Counted from the stretch's first letter, positions 27,955-40,481 are shown. The stretch is 64,000 bases of DNA from an uncultured Roseobacter sp. (GCA_913054455.1 CAJXIL010000001.1:1-64000); one strand, 5' to 3'. Notes: generated by a model not told the origin, from the letters alone. Program-made: numbers and translations.

Positions 27955-29214
27955 TTAGAGGCGCAGATCGGAGGCGTCCTGTGGCAGGATGTACTTCAGG
28001 TCGTAGAGCACCGCATCCTCGCCGCCGAAAGCGCGGAAATCACTTTCCTGCATCTGGATGAAGGCGCTATGGGCAACTGCGAGGATGATACCATCATAGG
28101 CCTGCTGCTCGGGCTGGGCGACGAGTTCCACACCCAAGCTTGCCTTTGCGGCGGCAGGATCGGCGTGGGGGTCGTGCACATCGACGCTTAACCCGTAGTC
28201 TTCCAGCCCTCGCAGCACATCAATGACACGGGTGTTCCGCAGGTCTGGGCAGTTTTCCTTGAAGGTTAATCCCATGATCAGCACGCGGTGCATGGGCTTG
28301 CCGCGTTTGACCAGGGCCTTGATCATCTGCTGGGCAACGTATGTCCCCATACCGTCGTTCAAACGGCGGCCTGCCAACAGTATATCCGGATGATAGCCCA
28401 GGCTTTCGGCCTTGTGAGTCAGGTAATAGGGGTCCACTCCGATACAGTGCCCGCCAACAAGGCCTGGACGGAAGGGGAGAAAATTCCACTTGCTGCCAGC
28501 GGCCTTTAGCACAGCCTCTGTGTCTATGCCCATACGGTTGAAAATCATCGCAAGCTCGTTCACCAAGGCGATATTGATATCGCGCTGGCTGTTTTCGATC
28601 ACTTTTGCAGCCTCGGCCACGCGGATGCTGGGTGCCAGATGGGTGCCAGCGGTTACGACCTCTTTGTAGAGCGCATCCACCTGCGCCGCCACTGCGGGGG
28701 TGGAGCCAGAGGTCACCTTGGTGATATCGGGTAAGCGGCGATTTTTGTCACCAGGATTGATCCGCTCGGGCGAATAGCCGACGTGGAAATCCTGATTGAA
28801 CCGCAGGCCGGATTCCGCTTCTAGGACCGGCACGCAGTCTTCTTCTGTGGCGCCGGGGTAGACGGTGCTTTCGTAGATCACCAGATCGCCAGGTTTCAGA
28901 ACGGCGCCAACGGTTTTGGAGGCCGCCAACAAAGGGCGCAGGTCGGGGCGATGGCTGGCATCTACCGGGGTGGGCACGGTGACGATATAGATCCTGGCAT
29001 CAGAGATTTCATCAGGATTTGAAGTCAGCGCCAGATGGCTTGCCTCGCTCAGCTCTTGTGGCGAGATTTCGCGGGTTTGGTCCGCGCCTGCGCGCAGTTC
29101 TGCGATGCGCGCGCCATCTATGTCAAACCCTAGGGTGGCACGATGCCGTCCAAAGGCCACCGCGAGGGGCAGACCCACATAGCCAAGGCCAATGATGCAA
29201 ATCTGATCTGGCAT
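27955..29214 (-). CDS. Nucleotide-sugar (UDP-sugar) dehydrogenase, TviB/WecC-like
   Basis: QICIIGLGYVGLPLAVAFG, GATEEDCVPVLE, PFRPGLVGGHCIGVDPYYL; start at MPDQICIIG (29214). Confidence 0.9.
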   Translation of the reverse strand: MPDQICIIGLGYVGLPLAVAFGRHRATLGFDIDGARIAELRAGADQTREISPQELSEASHLALTSNPDEISDARIYIVTVPTPVDASHRPDLRPLLAASKTVGAVLKPGDLVIYESTVYPGATEEDCVPVLEAESGLRFNQDFHVGYSPERINPGDKNRRLPDITKVTSGSTPAVAAQVDALYKEVVTAGTHLAPSIRVAEAAKVIENSQRDINIALVNELAMIFNRMGIDTEAVLKAAGSKWNFLPFRPGLVGGHCIGVDPYYLTHKAESLGYHPDILLAGRRLNDGMGTYVAQQMIKALVKRGKPMHRVLIMGLTFKENCPDLRNTRVIDVLRGLEDYGLSVDVHDPHADPAAAKASLGVELVAQPEQQAYDGIILAVAHSAFIQMQESDFRAFGGEDAVLYDLKYILPQDASDLRL

Positions 29215-29457
29215 GCTCTGCTCCTGCAGGTTTGGGATGCCCGGATGGCGCCCTTTTGCAGATGCCCATATAGACCCTTGCCGGGTGGGCCACCAGCCCC
29301 ACCAGATTGGCATTCGGCCCGCCGGCTAGCAGATTGCCCACCTAATTGACGCGATAAAGGGAAGAACAAACATTGAAGCCCGAAAAGAATGTGTAGCTTG
29401 GCTATCGTCAAACCTATGCTGTTTAAGTATTTTATCCCTGCGCGAGGAGGCTAGGAA

Positions 29458-31119: not shown

Positions 31120-31350
31120 CACTCCACTTGCTGAGCCGCTCAGTACCCCTTGCAAGGTGGCTCGTGAAAACGGCGCAAAACTGACAAATAAGGCTCTCTT
31201 GGCGTGGCAGAATGAGTCTCAGCTGGACCTGCCTCATACATCGACGGCAGGTCTGCGGACAAATCACCATTTCGCTGCGGCTGCGCCAATGTCGGCTTTT
31301 GGTCTGGCTAAGTTAGTGACACAACGCAGTTTGCAACCTACGGTACCCAG

Positions 31351-31812
31351 ATGAACGCAACAGACAATCAAATGCATAAGGTCATATTTGATCTCGGCTC
31401 TGACATTTGGCATGGTCATTCAACTGAAAGTGTGTGGGCAACCAACCTTGGTTCGGGTGTCTATCGGCTTGAGAATTCGCCGTTCTTTGCAAAGGGCATC
31501 AGCTTCCGGGACGCTGTCATGACAAGCCAGGTCGAAGGCCAGATAAAAGTTGTCGGCCTCGGTCCAAAATCTGGGCATTCTACATACCGAATTCTTGTTT
31601 TGCAGGACAAGCATGATCCTGGGTTGTTTGCCGAATCGTGGAAACCGCTCGAGCATCTTGGATGCTCATACGAACATGGAAACTTTGGGTATCAACTGTA
31701 TGCGATAGACGTTCCCGCGAGTGTAGATATCGAAACTGCGTATGCTTTTTTGGAACGCGGAGAACAAAAGGGGGCGTGGGATTTCGAGGAAGGCCACTGC
31801 GGTCATTTTTGA
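31351..31812 (+). CDS. DUF4265-like hypothetical protein
   Basis: HKVIFDLGSDIWHGHSTESVWATNLGSGVYRLENSPFFAKGISFRDAV. Confidence 0.65.
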   Translation: MNATDNQMHKVIFDLGSDIWHGHSTESVWATNLGSGVYRLENSPFFAKGISFRDAVMTSQVEGQIKVVGLGPKSGHSTYRILVLQDKHDPGLFAESWKPLEHLGCSYEHGNFGYQLYAIDVPASVDIETAYAFLERGEQKGAWDFEEGHCGHF

Positions 31813-31993
31813 AAACACCTTGCATTGATTATTTTTATGACTTCGCATTGAAGCAGCCATTCGTGCGTCCCGCTGCATCAGTCACTCTGGGCTCACCGCC
31901 GCCGTTCGCCGCGCCAAATCGACACAGAGATCGGAGATCAAGGCGGCTGAGCGGGACCTTACTGCCACAAATAAATATGGTCTCATTGCCTGC

Positions 31994-32728
31994 TTAGTCG
32001 ATATTGTAGCTTGGCAATTGGGCTAGCGCGTTGCGCAAGGCATCCCCCCAGCTTGAAGAAACCGCTTGGTAATAGGCATCGTCCACTTCGATCCGTGGTC
32101 TCGCGGTGGCTACAAAGCTGTCTTGAAAATAGACATGAAGATCAAGGGGGAGCCCAACTGACAAATTCGCCTTAATCGTTGAATCAAATGAGACGATCAG
32201 CAGTTTGACGGCGTCCTCAAATGACATGTCAGGGTCGTAGGCCCGTACAAGGATCGGCTTGCCATATTTGGCTTCGCCAATCTGGAAGAACGGGTTGTCC
32301 TCCGTGATTTCAATGAAATTGCCTTCGGGGTAGATCAAAAACATCGTCGGTGCCCCGCCTTTGATCTGGCCTCCTACAATCACCGAGGCTTTGAATTTCG
32401 ACGATGCTTGCTGTCCTTCAGTATGGCTATCGGAAATCACTTCTCTCAATGTCGAGCCTACAAGCCGGGCGATCTGAAACATTGTTGGCAGTTCCAATAT
32501 GGAGGGGCTGCGTTCCGTTGTGATCTTTGACCGTTCCTCTAGGAGACTAACCAGGGATTGGGTTGTTGCAAGATTGCCCGATGTCATCAGCGTGATGACC
32601 CGTTCGCCCGGAACATCCCAAGTGAACATTTTTCGCGTGACCGAGAAATTATCTACGCCTGCGTTGGTGCGGGTATCGGACATGAAAACCAAGCCCTTGT
32701 TCAATCGTAGTCCGACGCAATAGGTCAT
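31994..32728 (-). CDS. Anbu (ancestral proteasome beta-like) peptidase
   Basis: MTYCVGLRLNKGLVFMSDTRTNAGVDNFSVTRKMFTW (Thr2 candidate nucleophile); downstream of alpha-E/transglutaminase/ATP-grasp genes as in known Anbu clusters. Confidence 0.88.
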   Translation of the reverse strand: MTYCVGLRLNKGLVFMSDTRTNAGVDNFSVTRKMFTWDVPGERVITLMTSGNLATTQSLVSLLEERSKITTERSPSILELPTMFQIARLVGSTLREVISDSHTEGQQASSKFKASVIVGGQIKGGAPTMFLIYPEGNFIEITEDNPFFQIGEAKYGKPILVRAYDPDMSFEDAVKLLIVSFDSTIKANLSVGLPLDLHVYFQDSFVATARPRIEVDDAYYQAVSSSWGDALRNALAQLPSYNID

Positions 32729-32775
32729 TGTTATGGTCCAGTACGGGGTAGAAAGTTCGAAACAGTCTCCCGTAT

Positions 32776-33573
32776 CTATTGCTGAATTTGCAGCGATACA
32801 ATCATCGTCTCGTCCAAAGCGCCCCTGCGAATGCCCGTGATGGGTGCCGCATCTCGTGAATCGAGGCCAGTTGCGATCCTGACGTAACGCTCGTCCGGTG
32901 AAATGCCATTCGAGACGTCAAAGCCGACCCACCCCAGCCCCTCAAGATGGGCCTCGGCCCAGGCGTGGCTGGCATCTTGATCGATCCGGTCGTCCATCAT
33001 GAGATATCCACTAACGTAGCGTGCTGGAATGCCTGCCACCCGCGTCGCAGCAACGAAGATTTGCGCATGGTCCTGGCAAACGCCACCACCAGCCTTCAGC
33101 GCCTCTTCGGCGCTGGTCCCTGCGAAGGTATTCGCTTCGCCATAGGGTGCCGCTGCGAGTATTTCTTTTGACAATGCGTGGAGATTGCTCAGCGTATCGC
33201 CTTTGGCACGGATTTGTTTAGCGAGCTTGCGAATTCCACGGCCAGGTGTTGTGCGGGGCGTGGATTGGCAAAAATGCCAAAGCGGTGCCTTGCCGTAGAT
33301 TTTGCCAAAGATACCATCAGATGAATGGGTTTCGACCACGCCTGAGACCTGAACTGAGACTTCGGTCGTGCCGGCATCGGCCTGAACCAATAGCGTTTGG
33401 TTTTGATATTGATCTTGAAACTCAAGCTCCTGCACCCCGCCGGAAATCGAGATATTCCAGTCCAGAACCGTTTGGTGCTTTGTGGAGGTCGGGGTCAGGC
33501 GCACCTGTTGCAAGCCGTAAGAGACCGGTGCATCATAGGTGTATTGGGTCGTATGAGAGATTTCCAGTTTCAT
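32776..33573 (-). CDS. Transglutaminase-like (papain-fold) protein with N-terminal beta domain
   Basis: ISHTTQYTYDAPVSYGLQQVRLTP..., GGGVCQDHAQIFVAATRVAGIPARYVSGYL, DASHAWAEAHLEGLGWVGFD. Confidence 0.92.
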   Translation of the reverse strand: MKLEISHTTQYTYDAPVSYGLQQVRLTPTSTKHQTVLDWNISISGGVQELEFQDQYQNQTLLVQADAGTTEVSVQVSGVVETHSSDGIFGKIYGKAPLWHFCQSTPRTTPGRGIRKLAKQIRAKGDTLSNLHALSKEILAAAPYGEANTFAGTSAEEALKAGGGVCQDHAQIFVAATRVAGIPARYVSGYLMMDDRIDQDASHAWAEAHLEGLGWVGFDVSNGISPDERYVRIATGLDSRDAAPITGIRRGALDETMIVSLQIQQ

Positions 33574-33585
33574 AGTTTCAAATGC

Positions 33586-34527
33586 CTATCCGATGAACCG
33601 ATAGTCTTTTTCGATTTGCTGTCCGATCGCGTTGATGTCGTCGATAAAGGCTGTGATGAATTGATGCAGTCCCTCGTCAAAAACTGTTGCAATCGTGTGC
33701 CCGCGTAGCCTGTCACGCTGCGCGCTAATCATGTCGTGACAGGTCAAACGGGTGCCATAATCCTTGGCGAGAAAACCGAGACTCTCTTCTAGAATTCGGC
33801 TGCAAAAGGACAGAGAGCGTGGAAAGCGTGGGTCAAGAATGAGGAAGTCAGCGACGCTGGCGGGCGTCATGTTTTCATCGTTGAGCCAGCGAAACGACCG
33901 GTGCGCAGAAACCGAGCGCAAAATGGTTTCCCATTGCACGTTATCCAAAGCAGACCCGACAAAACTGGCGGAAGGTAATAGCGTGTAATACTTCACATCA
34001 ATGATCCGCGCTGTATTGTCTGCTCTTTCCAATGCGATGCCCATTTGGGTGAAATCAAAAATATCATTGCGCAGCATTGTGCCGTGCAGAGCCCCGCGGA
34101 CCAATGCGCTATGGCGGCGAATCTCTCCGAGCACGGCTGGTAGGTCCGTTTCCTTGACAGGTGACTTGAGTGTCTGTTTCAAGCCCATCCAGCCCTCATT
34201 GACAGCCTCCCACACCTCTGTGGTCAAGGCGGTTCGAACCATACGGGCGTTGGTCCGTGCTTTTTCGACAGCTGAGAGAACACTTGACAGATTGGCGGGG
34301 TCACGCAGCAGGAAATCCACCACATAGGCGGCTTCGTAGGTGTCGTATTTTGCGTCATAATTGCTGCGGGCACCCGCTGTGGTCACAACAGATTTCCATT
34401 CGGAAGCAGGATCATTGGACCGTGTCAGAGCAATCCTGAAACCGGCTTCGACAAGGCGCGCAGTATTTTCGCAGCGTTCCAATAAGCGAAACATCCAATA
34501 GAGGCCACCCGCGGTTTTTCCAAGCAT
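33586..34527 (-). CDS. Alpha-E domain protein (DUF403)
   Basis: MLGKTAGGLYWMFRLLERCENTARLVEAGFR...; between the transglutaminase and ATP-grasp genes. Confidence 0.9.
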   Translation of the reverse strand: MLGKTAGGLYWMFRLLERCENTARLVEAGFRIALTRSNDPASEWKSVVTTAGARSNYDAKYDTYEAAYVVDFLLRDPANLSSVLSAVEKARTNARMVRTALTTEVWEAVNEGWMGLKQTLKSPVKETDLPAVLGEIRRHSALVRGALHGTMLRNDIFDFTQMGIALERADNTARIIDVKYYTLLPSASFVGSALDNVQWETILRSVSAHRSFRWLNDENMTPASVADFLILDPRFPRSLSFCSRILEESLGFLAKDYGTRLTCHDMISAQRDRLRGHTIATVFDEGLHQFITAFIDDINAIGQQIEKDYRFIG

Positions 34528-34531
34528 TCTG

Positions 34532-35959
34532 CTAGTCCTCCAGAACCCAAGTGTCTTTGGTGCCGCCGCCCTGACTAGAGTTGACCACCAGAGAACCGGC
34601 CTTCAAAGCTACGCGGGTCAGCCCGCCAGGGGCTATGTCAATACCCTCAGGAGATACCAGGGCAAAGGGCCGTAGATCGACGTGACGCGGCGCAAGGCCT
34701 TTTTTGGCAAAGATGGGCACTGTCGACAAAGACAGGGTTGGCTGCGCGATATAGTTGCCTGGATTTCTGCGCAGTTTGGCGGCAAAGGAGGACAGCTCTT
34801 TCTTGCTGGCCGCTGGCCCCACAAGCATCCCGTAGCCGCCTGAACCGTGAACCTCTTTCACCACAAGCTCTGCCAGATGTTCCAGCACATAGGCCAGCGA
34901 GTCTGGTTCTGAACAGCGCCATGTCTCGACGTTCTTCAAGATTGCTTTCTCGCCAGTATAGAACTCGATGATATCAGGCATGTAGGAGTAGATCGCTTTG
35001 TCGTCAGCAATGCCTGTACCAGGTGCGTTGGCAATCGTGATGTTGCCGGCGCGGTAGACATCCATGATCCCCGGAACACCCAGCATGGAGTCTGGGTTGA
35101 AATTCAGCGGGTCAAGATATTCATCATCGACCCTGCGATACAGAACATCGATATTCTTGTAGCCCCTGGTTGTTCGCATTGCGATGTGGCCGTCCACGAC
35201 CATCAGATCATGACCTTCTACCAGCTCGACGCCCATCTGATCGGCGAGAAACGAATGCTCAAAATAGGCAGAGTTGTGAATTCCAGGCGTCAGAATGGCC
35301 ACAGTGGGTTTGCCAGCGCATCCTTGGGGCGCACATGCGGCAAGGGAGCGCCGCAGGTTCTTGGGATAGTCGCTGACCCGTTGAACTTTGATCTGGCTAA
35401 ACAGTTCGGGGAACATGTGCAGCATCGTTTCGCGATTTTCCAGCATATAGGACACACCCGACGGGGTACGGGCGTTGTCTTCTAGCACGTAAAAATCATC
35501 CTCACCCGTGCGCACCAGATCAGTGCCAACGATGTGGGTGTAGACTTTACCCGGTGGTGTGATGCCGATCATCTGCGGCAGGAACGCTTCATTGCGCGAA
35601 ATCAATTCAGTTGGCACGATCCCCGCCCGCAGGATTTCTTGTCGGTGATAAATGTCGTGCAGGAAAGCATTGATGGCAACCACACGCTGCTTGATCCCTT
35701 TGGACAATTTTGTCCACTCGCGGTTTGCGATGATCCTGGGGATCAGGTCAAACGGGATCAAACGTTCTTGGGCCTCGGCTTGCCCATAGACATTAAAGGT
35801 GATGCCGGTTCGTCTAAAAAACGCCTCGGCTTCCTTTGATTTCTTTGAAAGACGCGTGGGGTCTTCGTTTGCAAACCACTTTTGGTATTCGGCATACGGA
35901 GCGCGTACGCCATCTGAACCCAAAAGCATTTCATCAAAGTGGCGGCGTTCTAAATCCAT
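34532..35959 (-). CDS. Circularly permuted type-2 ATP-grasp (DUF404/DUF407)
   Basis: FYVLEDNARTPSGVSYMLENR, VKEVHGSGGYGMLVGPAASK, RHVDLRPFALVSPEGIDIAPGGLTRVALKAGSLVVNSSQGGGTKDTWVL. Confidence 0.93.
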   Translation of the reverse strand: MDLERRHFDEMLLGSDGVRAPYAEYQKWFANEDPTRLSKKSKEAEAFFRRTGITFNVYGQAEAQERLIPFDLIPRIIANREWTKLSKGIKQRVVAINAFLHDIYHRQEILRAGIVPTELISRNEAFLPQMIGITPPGKVYTHIVGTDLVRTGEDDFYVLEDNARTPSGVSYMLENRETMLHMFPELFSQIKVQRVSDYPKNLRRSLAACAPQGCAGKPTVAILTPGIHNSAYFEHSFLADQMGVELVEGHDLMVVDGHIAMRTTRGYKNIDVLYRRVDDEYLDPLNFNPDSMLGVPGIMDVYRAGNITIANAPGTGIADDKAIYSYMPDIIEFYTGEKAILKNVETWRCSEPDSLAYVLEHLAELVVKEVHGSGGYGMLVGPAASKKELSSFAAKLRRNPGNYIAQPTLSLSTVPIFAKKGLAPRHVDLRPFALVSPEGIDIAPGGLTRVALKAGSLVVNSSQGGGTKDTWVLED

Positions 35960-36007
35960 AAGAACACTTTAGGAGGTACTGATGCTTTAGCAATGCGTAT
36001 TGTTCGG

Positions 36008-36787
36008 TCAGATAATTCGCGACACATTAACTGCCTGTTTTTTGAGCGACATACTGCCGTAGGAGGTCATGAAAGAGACGTCTGCTGCGTCCCTGCCCAC
36101 ACCAATTCGGGCAATCTCGCTCGCTTTTGCCATGCCGGTCGGGTCGACCAAATGCCACTGGCCCTCTAGATAAACCTCTGCCACGGCGTGAAAATCCTGG
36201 GGGGTGACATCTGGCGCATAGGCGCTCACAAATCGGGCGGGAATGCCCACTGCACGTGCCATTGCGATCAAGACATGCGCATAGTCACGACAAACGCCTG
36301 CACGCGCCCCAAAACTGTCCGTTGCGGTTGTCATACCGTTGCTCACAAGGTTGTCGTAGGTGAATTCGTTCCTGATCCATTTGGACATCACTGCAATCAA
36401 CTGCCCACCAGAACGCGGCCCAAACAAAGCTGGGACAGAATTCAGGAAGTCTTCAGGGTGACAGTATCTTGAGGGCATCAGAAATTTAGTGACCTCACTG
36501 GGGATCTGGTTGAGCGGTGTGGTTTGCAGATCAGACAGTTCAACACTTTGCCGATCTACCACGACCTTGGTTTGATACAGGCACTCAAACGCGTCGGCCA
36601 CGCGCAGCCAGCGCCTGATCCCAACCTGCTCTTCACCTCGCACAATATTGGTTTCAATATCGGATGAAATGCGAAACTGCATCTCCTCGAGCCGTTGCTC
36701 GGGATCTTGTGCCACCTCAATCTGCAGCAAAAGATCGCAAGGCTGTGCGCATGTGTAGATGAGGTGGGCCTGAATCGATAGAAGCAA
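36008..36787 (-). CDS. Second transglutaminase-like protein
   Basis: FGARAGVCRDYAHVLIAMARAVGIPARFVSAYAPDVTPQDFHAVAEVYLEGQWHLVDPTG. Confidence 0.92.
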   Translation of the reverse strand: MLLSIQAHLIYTCAQPCDLLLQIEVAQDPEQRLEEMQFRISSDIETNIVRGEEQVGIRRWLRVADAFECLYQTKVVVDRQSVELSDLQTTPLNQIPSEVTKFLMPSRYCHPEDFLNSVPALFGPRSGGQLIAVMSKWIRNEFTYDNLVSNGMTTATDSFGARAGVCRDYAHVLIAMARAVGIPARFVSAYAPDVTPQDFHAVAEVYLEGQWHLVDPTGMAKASEIARIGVGRDAADVSFMTSYGSMSLKKQAVNVSRII

Positions 36788-37051: not shown

Positions 37052-37840
37052 TCAGTGCAGTTGACTTGGTTGTACAAACCGAAGCCGAAACCGATCCCAC
37101 AAGGCCCTGAACGGGTTCCTTTGGGGCGGGGTTGCCTCACGAGATTTTTCCGAAATAAATTCTGCCAGTTTCTGGACATTTGGTTCAAGGAAATAGGTGC
37201 CATGCTTTCCCTCCAAGAAGTCCCAAGAATACTGGGAGTTCCGCTCACTCCAGAATTCAATGGGGTTTCGCGTTGAGAGGAATGGATTGAACCCGCTCTC
37301 ACGGCCAAACAGCATGAACCTTTGGCCGCGGTAGGTTCTCTTACCGATGTAGTCTATCGACAAAAGATAGGGGGACACGCCTGCGTCATCCATCATTTGT
37401 ATCGCCATGGATTCGGCAATTGGCGCACCTTGGCAATTGCCGCCAATGAGAAAGCTCGAGGCGCCTTTCACCTGCCTGACGCTTTCAATGTAGCGTTTCG
37501 CAAGGGGTTCGTTGAACCTAGTTTTCAGCCCCCATTTGTTCGTAATACCGCTAAACGAACCCATGGCATAGAGAGGCTGGTTTTCGTCCAAATGGTTGGC
37601 CAGAAGGAAAGGTTCGGCCCAGCTGTTGAAGCACCAAAACAAGGGTGGTTTCTTTCCTTTGGTATTCCAGGCAAGAAAGTCCCCAACAGCGCTAGGTGCA
37701 TGTTTTGAGGCCCGGTTCTTTTCGGCCAAGATAGCGGCAAAAATGTCTTCGAACTCAGCTGCGGGCCCCGGCGACAGGGTCTCAGGAAGCATTTTGTTCG
37801 GCACATAGCTCCAACGTTTATAGGCATCGGTATTGGTCAT
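37052..37840 (-). CDS. Thioesterase-domain (NRPS/PKS type) alpha/beta-hydrolase with predicted Cys nucleophile
   Basis: KKPPLFWCFNSWAEPFLLANHLDENQPLYAMGS; YIESVRQVKGASSFLIGGNCQGAPIAESMA (Cys where GxSxG Ser is expected); LLSIDY; GKHGTYFLEPNVQKLAEFI (catalytic His). Confidence 0.72.
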   Translation of the reverse strand: MTNTDAYKRWSYVPNKMLPETLSPGPAAEFEDIFAAILAEKNRASKHAPSAVGDFLAWNTKGKKPPLFWCFNSWAEPFLLANHLDENQPLYAMGSFSGITNKWGLKTRFNEPLAKRYIESVRQVKGASSFLIGGNCQGAPIAESMAIQMMDDAGVSPYLLSIDYIGKRTYRGQRFMLFGRESGFNPFLSTRNPIEFWSERNSQYSWDFLEGKHGTYFLEPNVQKLAEFISEKSREATPPQRNPFRALWDRFRLRFVQPSQLH

Positions 37841-37905
37841 GTCGGTTCTATTTCTTGATCACCGAAGCGGGCGGAACCCTTGGAGGGGAGGGGATGAAAA
37901 GTAGT

Positions 37906-38166
37906 TTAGACCAGCCGCGCAACGACATCATAAACAGATTCAGTCCGCCTCATGAATGTTTCAGGATGCACTCGGAGTTTGAAAGTGTTCTGTAGTTCGA
38001 TGGCCATGGTAACTGCGTCAATAGAATCCAAATCATACTCCGACAAGAGGTCGGACGCATCCAGGCTATCAGTTGGCTCCCCAATGATGGTTGCCAGATA
38101 GACCAAAATCCAACGGTTCAAGGTTTCGCTATCAAGGGTTTGTACCGCGTGCACGGAGGGCTCCAT
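37906..38166 (-). CDS. Stand-alone acyl/peptidyl carrier protein
   Basis: 86 aa with LLSEYDLDSIDAVTMAIELQNTF (phosphopantetheine-attachment DSI motif). Confidence 0.85.
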   Translation of the reverse strand: MEPSVHAVQTLDSETLNRWILVYLATIIGEPTDSLDASDLLSEYDLDSIDAVTMAIELQNTFKLRVHPETFMRRTESVYDVVARLV

Positions 38167-38205
38167 TCAAAGTCAGAGGGAAGAATGAGGATGCAGGCAA
38201 GTGCA

Positions 38206-39258
38206 TTATGTTGTCTTATAGTGGCGCTCAAGGAGGTTCAGTATTTTAGCGGCGACATCGACCTTTTTTCCTTGCCATGGGTAGTAAAAGGACAGGAGCG
38301 CCGGGCTCGCATTGAATTCCAGCAGCCAGTAATTGTCGTCCGTGGCCGGCACCGTGTAATTCTCAATCACCAGGTCGACACCAGAGTAAAGCAGGCCGGG
38401 AATTTCCTTGCAGGCTTTGGCGACGATCTCTCGATAGCTGGGGTGTACCTCGTCCCAGAACAAATAACTGTCCGCCCCTGCCGTCGCATTGGAGACGCCG
38501 CTTAGGAAAACGCGCTCGCCGGCTGACGGAATATCCTCCAGTGTCCGGCCGTGACGCTCCAGATACTCGCAAATGGCCTCGCCGATGGGAAACTGAGGGT
38601 GTGTTGGCAGTTTGCGCTCGGCGCGTTCCGCGTTTTTAGCTTGCGCCAGTTGCAACAAAGACGAGCATCCATCACCGACCACACTGCAGGGGCGCCCGTA
38701 GCGGATCCCGACGACCTCCGGTTCAACGTAAAAAAACCGAAAATGTTCGCCGGTGACACTCTCTTCGATCAGGATGTTGGGAAAGCGCGCAGCAACGCGA
38801 TCAATTGCGGTTTTGAGCCAGGCCTCCTCAGTGATGTTTGGGAAAACGCAACGTCCCTCAGACCCGTGATTGGGTTTAACGCAGATCGGACCAGAGAAAT
38901 CCTTAAAGGATGCATAGGCAGCTTCGAGATTGCGCCGGCGAAAGAACTGGCCTTTGGGGACGCTAAAGCCCTTGCTGGAAAGATGCTGTTTGCATTTAAA
39001 TTTGTGGGCTATCAGCAATGAGGCATCGTGGTTCACATTCAGGCCAATGCGGTCCCATTCGTCACTGCCCTGTGCCAGCAACATGCCGCGCGCATAAAAG
39101 AATTCTTGGCCGGCGATGTAGAATGTGAGCCAGGTATTCCGCTTACCCCCAGATTGTACAATTTTTGTGACAGTGGGGATTCCCCTGGCCTCTGCTGCTG
39201 CCTTTACATGGGTGGAATGCAGGTCCAGTTTGGCCTCTGGAGCTTCAAGAATCGGCAC
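38206..39258 (-). CDS. ATP-grasp ligase resembling the ATP-grasp domain of cyanophycin synthetase/GshAB
   Basis: PICVKPNHGSEGRCV, SVTGEHFRFFYVEPEVVGIRYGRPCSVVGDGCSSLLQLAQAKN, GERVFLSGVSNATAGADSYLFWDEVHPSYREIVAKACKEIPGLLYSGVDLV, WLLEFNASPALLSFYYPW. GTG start at 39258 chosen because AAGGGGG lies just upstream; the ORF track opens at 39429. Confidence 0.78.
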   Translation of the reverse strand: MPILEAPEAKLDLHSTHVKAAAEARGIPTVTKIVQSGGKRNTWLTFYIAGQEFFYARGMLLAQGSDEWDRIGLNVNHDASLLIAHKFKCKQHLSSKGFSVPKGQFFRRRNLEAAYASFKDFSGPICVKPNHGSEGRCVFPNITEEAWLKTAIDRVAARFPNILIEESVTGEHFRFFYVEPEVVGIRYGRPCSVVGDGCSSLLQLAQAKNAERAERKLPTHPQFPIGEAICEYLERHGRTLEDIPSAGERVFLSGVSNATAGADSYLFWDEVHPSYREIVAKACKEIPGLLYSGVDLVIENYTVPATDDNYWLLEFNASPALLSFYYPWQGKKVDVAAKILNLLERHYKTT

Positions 39259-39374
39259 TTCTGCCCCCTTGCTTCTTGTGAATGCATGCGGTCTTGACCT
39301 ACTGGTCGAAAGGGGTAACAAGCTTAAATAGTTAAATTGTTTCAAACCTATCAAAAAAATTTGAGAGGGTGTCA

Positions 39375-40481
39375 ATGACAAAAATTGGCTTGCTGTACTT
39401 TCGCAAAGTCCCTGTCGCGACCATGCCAAGGCTACGTATGCGTGCGCTCCTGGCTGAGGCTGCGCTGCAGGACCTTGATCTGGTCTTGCTCAACCCACAG
39501 GATTGCAAGCCTGAGGAAAAGACGATCGTCACCAAACGTTTCATCGGGGGGGAGTGGGATCAGCAAGAGGAGGCCTTGCCTGATGTTGTTTACATCGTGG
39601 GCGCGCCTCTTTTGCCTGCCCACGCAGTGGTCAACACGCTGGTGCGAGAAAACTGTCGGATCATCGCTGACAAAGGCGTCAATAAGCTAAAGCTGGCGAC
39701 GATCTTGGCTGGAAGCCCTGCAGAAGCCTATCTGCCGCCAACGGAGAAAATTCCCGATGAGGCGCCTGCCGAGATGCTCTGTGACTTTCTGCGCGCCAAT
39801 GGCGGCGCGGTTGTGAAACGGGCCAACGGCAACCAAGGCGTTGGCCTGTTCTTTGTTACTCAGGAACCAGGCACGGAAACCTGGCAGGTTAAATCTGATA
39901 GCAAGGTCTTCTTGGGGACGCTAGAAGAGGCGGCAAACTATGTAGCAAAGCGTATTGCCGGGCGTATGAGGTATCGAGCCTATTTGGCACAACGCCATAT
40001 CTGTTCAGTGGCGGGCGACGGTCGGCCTGCGGATGTGCGCGTACATGTGCAGCGCCATGCAGATGGCGCCTGGGGTATTACCCGCGCCTATGTGCGCTTG
40101 GCCGAGGTGGGCATGCCCTTGGCGAATATCAGCAAAGGCGGCTATCAAGGCCCCCTGGAAGGGTTTCTCAATCAGCGAAAGGTGCGCGCTCCTGCCGAGA
40201 TTGAAGCGGAACTCCTGGAGGCTGCGGTATCTATCGCGGAGGTGGAGGATAGTTATCGCCCGCGGCCGTTGAGTGAGCTGGGAATCGATTTTTTGATTGA
40301 TGAAAAAGACCAGATTTGGCTGATCGAAACCAATACTTTCCCACAGAGCTTTTTGCATGAGCATGACAGGGCTATGCATTTTCTTTCCTACTGCAAATGG
40401 TTGGCAGAACAGGAGCGACAGCTAGACCGGGTAATCCAGCCGATGGCTGCCAACGCGCAAGAAAACCAAGATTTAGCCTGA
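39375..40481 (+). CDS. YheC/YheD-like ATP-grasp protein
   Basis: MTKIGLLYFRKVPVATMPRLRMRALLAEAAL; AVVKRANGNQGVGLFFV; RPADVRVHVQRHADGAWGITRAYVRLAEVGMPLANISKGG; LIETNTFPQSFLHEHDRAM. Confidence 0.75.
   Translation: MTKIGLLYFRKVPVATMPRLRMRALLAEAALQDLDLVLLNPQDCKPEEKTIVTKRFIGGEWDQQEEALPDVVYIVGAPLLPAHAVVNTLVRENCRIIADKGVNKLKLATILAGSPAEAYLPPTEKIPDEAPAEMLCDFLRANGGAVVKRANGNQGVGLFFVTQEPGTETWQVKSDSKVFLGTLEEAANYVAKRIAGRMRYRAYLAQRHICSVAGDGRPADVRVHVQRHADGAWGITRAYVRLAEVGMPLANISKGGYQGPLEGFLNQRKVRAPAEIEAELLEAAVSIAEVEDSYRPRPLSELGIDFLIDEKDQIWLIETNTFPQSFLHEHDRAMHFLSYCKWLAEQERQLDRVIQPMAANAQENQDLA

Follow-up and report, generated by a model that had tools for sequence, protein, structure and literature searches.

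A compact cassette combining CphA-like and YheC/D-type ATP-grasp ligases with a carrier protein and a cysteine thioesterase-like hydrolase in an uncultured Roseobacter sp.

Described systems closest to the cassette

To our knowledge, carrier proteins are almost always loaded by AMP-forming enzymes, and the only ATP-grasp enzyme that we know to form a thioester with a carrier protein is BtrJ of the butirosin pathway. CphA and GshAB, the closest characterised ATP-grasp enzymes to the ligase described below, yield amides, not thioesters, and the YheC/YheD family is associated with the Bacillus spore coat. In butirosin biosynthesis, the ATP-grasp enzyme BtrJ acts alongside a stand-alone acyl carrier protein (ACP), BtrI, and the PLP decarboxylase BtrK. 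The substrate of BtrK is the glutamyl-S-BtrI carrier protein (PMC7857480).

The cassette reported here lies at positions 37052–40481 of a 64,000-nucleotide stretch (the window) from an uncultured Roseobacter sp. In its mode of working it appears most like the butirosin carrier pathway, BtrJ and BtrI being likened to its products by description rather than by sequence. An ATP-grasp gene lies beside that of a stand-alone ACP (~87 aa) with no adenylation (A) domain, as in butirosin, but the ATP-grasp enzymes are of the CphA-like and YheC/D types and are accompanied by an alpha/beta-hydrolase thioesterase (TE). Neither the surroundings of the window cassette nor its Azospirillum relatives contain a decarboxylase gene; one is present only in Amphritea, where an alanine-racemase-fold enzyme matches BtrK and diaminopimelate decarboxylases (DAPDC). 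Because this defining enzyme is lacking from the window and Azospirillum loci, the cassette was not classified as butirosin-type. The Dlt D-alanylation system is similar in using a small amino-acid carrier protein and, possibly, in a glycan acceptor, but no AMP-ligase (DltA) is encoded on the window contig and the carrier is only weakly DltC-like (6e-4). The scleric acid pathway, which also contains an ATP-grasp enzyme, an ACP and a TE, was set aside since it includes an NRPS module. The component families are known, but the open-access literature searched yielded no account of their combination in a cassette of this kind.

The four genes and their products

The original prediction of three co-directional genes and one divergent gene was borne out, all four reading frames being present with the predicted limits and encoding 1,066 residues in total:

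37052..37840, minus strand: Cys-nucleophile thioesterase-like alpha/beta-hydrolase (TE), 262 aa (profile, invariant Cys/His)
37906..38166, minus strand: dedicated acyl/aminoacyl carrier protein (ACP), 86 aa (PF00550)
38206..39258, minus strand: stand-alone CphA/GshAB-type ATP-grasp ligase, 350 aa (NCBIfam, PDB profile, catalytic-type residues)
39259..39374, no strand: intergenic region between the divergent genes, presumed to hold a shared promoter (divergent layout also in four Azospirillum loci)
39375..40481, plus strand: YheC/D-type ATP-grasp ligase, 368 aa, divergent (PF14398)

Chance reading frames are excluded because conservation at the protein level spans several bacterial groups. No sigma-70 consensus was found in the intergenic region, the promoter scan giving no signal above chance. 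The absence of a nearby adenylation domain was also confirmed: there are 24 AMP-binding matches in the genome but none on the window contig, and the cassette accordingly does not qualify as an NRPS locus. Comparison with PHROGs gave no match. The genome encodes two PPTases and a single YheC/D copy.

The 38206..39258 ligase begins with a GTG codon preceded (5') by AAGGGGG. Among NCBIfam models it matches most strongly the CphA model, in its ATP-grasp part (cya_phycin_syn, 2.7e-42), followed by GshAB (2.8e-41), in agreement with the predicted family, and a PDB profile search matched CphA 7wac at 9e-43. The alignable ATP-grasp domain covers ~260 residues (E 1e-41 to 1e-43), but the protein falls below the whole-protein NCBIfam cut-offs for CphA and GshAB: it lacks the Mur-ligase or GCS half of these two-ligase enzymes and is paired with an ACP instead. 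Catalytic-type residues K86, K128, R174, R249, D295, E314 and N316 are present. The protein shares 57% identity with a paralogue in its own genome and 41–45% with relatives in Azospirillum and Amphritea. A 1162-aa ORF elsewhere (L065:8830-12318) contains a CphA-like ATP-grasp domain 36% identical to the window protein over ~300 residues.

The divergent ligase was correctly predicted to be YheC/D-like (PF14398, 1.5e-39; 136 bits against a gathering cut-off of 26.8) and contains residues K148, E318 and N320. It is 40–44% identical to its same-cassette relatives in Azospirillum and Amphritea but only ~26% identical to Priestia YheC/YheD members, from which it also differs in being encoded beside an ACP in a Rhodobacteraceae-type alphaproteobacterium.

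The ACP is clearly a PP-binding protein (PF00550, 9.2e-11; 42.3 bits against a gathering cut-off of 20.8) and also matches the NCBIfam ACP entry PRK05350 (1.6e-8). Ser48 (codon 38023-38025) lies within DLDSIDAV, and the motif DLDS(I/V)DA is kept in all seven aligned sequences. The nearest solved structure is 2n98, which we take to be a free-standing ACP of a lipopeptide pathway.

The TE had been described as NRPS-type, and it is indeed homologous to C-terminal TE-like domains of Rhodobacteraceae NRPSs (tblastn/HMM, E to 1e-19). Pfam returned no match for the window TE alone, so that the PF00975 gathering score is not reached; one relative scores 19.9 against the cut-off of 26.4, and one is located directly after an A-PCP pair. 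In PDB, a profile of nine TE sequences matched 4zxh, an NRPS of known structure, within its TE domain at 3e-7, as well as weaker TE entries. By profile the protein belongs to the thioesterase superfamily (GxCxG elbow, distal His, TE homology), the triad residues assigned being Cys136 (codon 37433-37435) of the nucleophile elbow GGNCQG and His213 (codon 37202-37204; HGxYF), both invariant in the nine aligned sequences. Compared with the homologous NRPS thioesterase domains (PF00975-like, Cys type), it is stand-alone, carries an N-terminal extension of ~60 residues, has the GGNCQG elbow and lies below Pfam detection. It is 37–40% identical to the TEs of the same cassette in Amphritea and UBA3532. 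Relatives elsewhere are either final domains after A-PCP in NRPSs or stand-alone proteins encoded beside AMP-ligases or an ACP, and the ATP-grasp ligase of the window can therefore be regarded as occupying the place of the A domain. Four Rhodobacteraceae loci (L042, L044, L046 and L052) encode Cys thioesterases that stand alone and have a GGNCQ motif or one near it, likewise of a family below Pfam detection; they adjoin AMP-ligases, ACPs or capsule/sulfotransferase-like genes. AlphaFold models of the TE (three sequences, mean pLDDT 36) and of the ATP-grasp ligase (six sequences, mean pLDDT 51) were of too low confidence for pocket reading.

Relatives of the cassette and their distribution

Co-occurrence of the genes in other genomes, the main test of the original prediction, was found in Azospirillum, Amphritea pacifica and a gammaproteobacterial MAG. 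Four Azospirillum loci, located on plasmids of Azospirillum sp. TSH100 and A. lipoferum 4B and on contigs of B506 and TSO35-2, encode a YheC/D protein divergently from a CphA-like ATP-grasp ligase, an ACP and an alpha/beta-hydrolase (41–45% identity), the last three genes abutting or overlapping. This hydrolase is a Ser-type enzyme (GQSTGG) in which no similarity to the window TE could be detected, and its relatives are found in pseudaminic-acid and capsule loci. In Amphritea pacifica, the genes are laid out as ACP | YheC/D–sulfotransferase–PLP decarboxylase–ATP-grasp–ATP-grasp–Cys-TE. The decarboxylase gene, whose product matches DAPDC at 7e-35 and BtrK 2j66 at 4e-24, overlaps the first ATP-grasp gene by 4 bp. 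The gammaproteobacterial MAG UBA3532 contains an ATP-grasp gene cut by the contig end, a second ATP-grasp gene and a Cys-TE gene. Judging from these gene contents, the hydrolase slot is replaceable, being filled by either a Cys-TE or an unrelated Ser-hydrolase.

On another contig of the window genome, a second ATP-grasp gene (57% identity) and a divergently arranged ACP gene (51%) are present with no TE or YheC/D gene nearby. Since this pair stands without the other two genes, the ligase and ACP look like the minimal unit. Gene content, the conservation of residues and motifs, and the co-inheritance of ATP-grasp and ACP follow directly from the sequences; the identities of the two proteins correlate across seven lineages (r = 0.96, uncorrected for kinship). 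A 1387-aa DUF6603 protein is encoded near the paralogous pair (L041:12233-16396).

The Agrobacterium tumefaciens plasmid pAt (CP048491; L092:4156-9138) encodes a 1660-residue fusion protein, preceded by type I secretion genes and followed by a Ser alpha/beta-hydrolase gene, with the following domains:

residues ~579-895: YheC/D ATP-grasp
residues 1037-1295: CphA-like ATP-grasp
residues 1373-1648: another CphA-like ATP-grasp

At the level of predicted domains, this locus brings both ligase types together with a hydrolase. No ACP was detected at it, so an ACP is not a necessary partner of such ligases in all systems. The N-terminal region of the fusion gave a marginal GH76 match, and its N-terminal 570 residues recur in Mur-ligase-annotated proteins on many Agrobacterium plasmids.

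The neighbourhood check in Rhodobacteraceae returned almost nothing: no other true relative was recognised in several hundred genomes, and the relatives lie outside the family. Searches at the order, family, class and phylum levels (several hundred genomes each, in overlapping samples) turned up no additional strong relative at the thresholds applied, which makes the cassette rare and scattered, a pattern that fits horizontal transfer. The genome-contig scan was pattern-based and of limited recall; with a two-sequence alignment it found none, and a second scan found four loci. Five matches at the family and phylum levels (G884, G594, G669, G117 and G814) were rejected as distant ATP-grasp proteins beside which no ACP, TE or YheC/D relatives were recognised; two other matches (G329 and G390) are long frames of over 1000 aa. 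A scan of viral contigs gave no cassette match. At the thresholds used, the cassette was not found in three genomes of the same genus, in which the LysR and SDR genes that border the cassette on the side away from the Anbu operon are kept in whole or in part and the two flanks are split between contigs.

Proposed pathway and alternative readings

We tentatively read the cassette as a minimal carrier-protein pathway free of adenylation, in which ATP-grasp ligation takes the place of adenylation, although our confidence stops somewhat short of calling this probable. We infer the chemical steps, the amino-acid substrate and the acceptor as follows. The CphA-like ligase would activate a small acid by phosphorylating its carboxylate, an amino acid being the most likely substrate, and the acyl phosphate would be captured by the phosphopantetheine thiol of the ACP or by an amine already on it. 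The YheC/D ligase may then add a second unit or protect the first with one. By transthiolation, the chain would move from the ACP to the Cys-TE, which would release it to water or transfer it to an acceptor that may be a glycan. The DAPDC/BtrK-type PLP enzyme of Amphritea would supply a decarboxylation and the second ATP-grasp ligase there an extension. Loading of the ACP by the ATP-grasp ligase is preferred because these two form the pair that survives alone, because the ligase stands in the place of the A domain and because BtrK belongs to the group matched by the decarboxylase of Amphritea. The fusion of YheC/D with two CphA-like domains in Agrobacterium and the two PPTases of the genome also agree with the pathway. 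Of the minimal pathway originally proposed, the conservation of the unit across distant bacteria, the invariant ACP serine, the retained Cys and His of the TE and the free-standing ATP-grasp/ACP pair speak in its favour; the TE did not prove universal, its place being taken by a Ser-hydrolase in Azospirillum. The carrier-protein pathway is opposed by the paralogous locus without a TE, by the Agrobacterium fusion without a detectable ACP and by the amide products of CphA and GshAB.

The Cys nucleophile, which is suited to acyl transfer, could instead point to lipo-amino-acid or lipopeptide synthesis, in which the ACP would carry a fatty acyl group from the fatty-acid pool, the ATP-grasp ligases would produce a dipeptide or amino-acid conjugate in free form, and the two would be joined by the Cys-TE as an acyltransferase. 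The 2n98 and PRK05350 matches of the ACP agree with this, but an ATP-grasp/ACP pair without a TE in the paralogous locus, the lack of an AMP-ligase next to the cassette and the A-PCP pairs that precede TE relatives make it unlikely. We assign a similarly low probability to decoration of a capsule or other surface glycan with an aminoacyl or peptidyl group, Dlt-like in role but not in homology. Genes for a sulfotransferase-like protein and GT1 adjoin YheC/D in all four Azospirillum loci, a sulfotransferase gene is present in Amphritea, and a UDP-sugar dehydrogenase is encoded in the window (27955-29313); the recurrent sulfotransferase/GT neighbours and the pseudaminic-acid and capsule loci housing relatives of the Azospirillum hydrolase are what make a glycan acceptor possible. 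Against it, no glycosyltransferase or sulfotransferase gene was found among the window genes scanned (27.1 to 46.7 kb), and the sulfotransferase-like genes of Azospirillum and Amphritea share no detectable similarity. As this reading concerns the acceptor, it is compatible with the adenylation-free carrier pathway.

Downstream of the cassette, in the same direction and separated by 264 bp, lie a second transglutaminase gene (36008-36787) and a complete Anbu operon, together spanning 31994-36787:

31994-32728: Anbu
32776-33573: transglutaminase
33586-34527: alpha-E
34532-35959: CP-ATP-grasp (circularly permuted)

Membership of the cassette in this operon as part of a protein-tagging system is very improbable, even though the cassette ligase and the CP-ATP-grasp are alike in not having been found in the three same-genus genomes at the thresholds used. 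The fixed gene order that defines the Anbu operon is contained in 31994-35959 and excludes the cassette, in agreement with the published description of this operon as a separate set of four genes (PMC6376114). By tblastn, none of the four Anbu operon genes was found near the cassette in six other loci or near the paralogous locus, and the link was set aside as a neighbour common to no other cassette locus examined. A block around a DUF4265 ORF (31255-31896) is 99.5% identical to a differently placed same-genus copy (L083 8012-8654), and a further genome of the genus has matches to its ends at several places (76–88%); the block appears to be a short unit that moved recently. A decayed or chance cluster without joint function, to which the great rarity of the cassette in Rhodobacteraceae might point, is barely credible: with content conserved at 40–45% identity from Alpha- to Gammaproteobacteria, open reading frames and intact motifs, it is refuted as far as sequence can do so.

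The adenylation-free carrier pathway may extend to a hitherto undescribed thiotemplated family in which CphA-type ATP-grasp enzymes charge and extend a dedicated carrier and Cys- and Ser-hydrolases are interchangeable for release or transfer, a generalization that we regard as rather doubtful. If it is true, carrier loading by ATP-grasp relatives of cyanophycin synthetase would broaden the logic known for non-ribosomal assembly. The systems would be very small, the four proteins here totalling 1,066 residues, and their window, Azospirillum and Amphritea versions represent natural part swaps. Pathways that may escape genome mining based on A, KS or C domains would also come to light.
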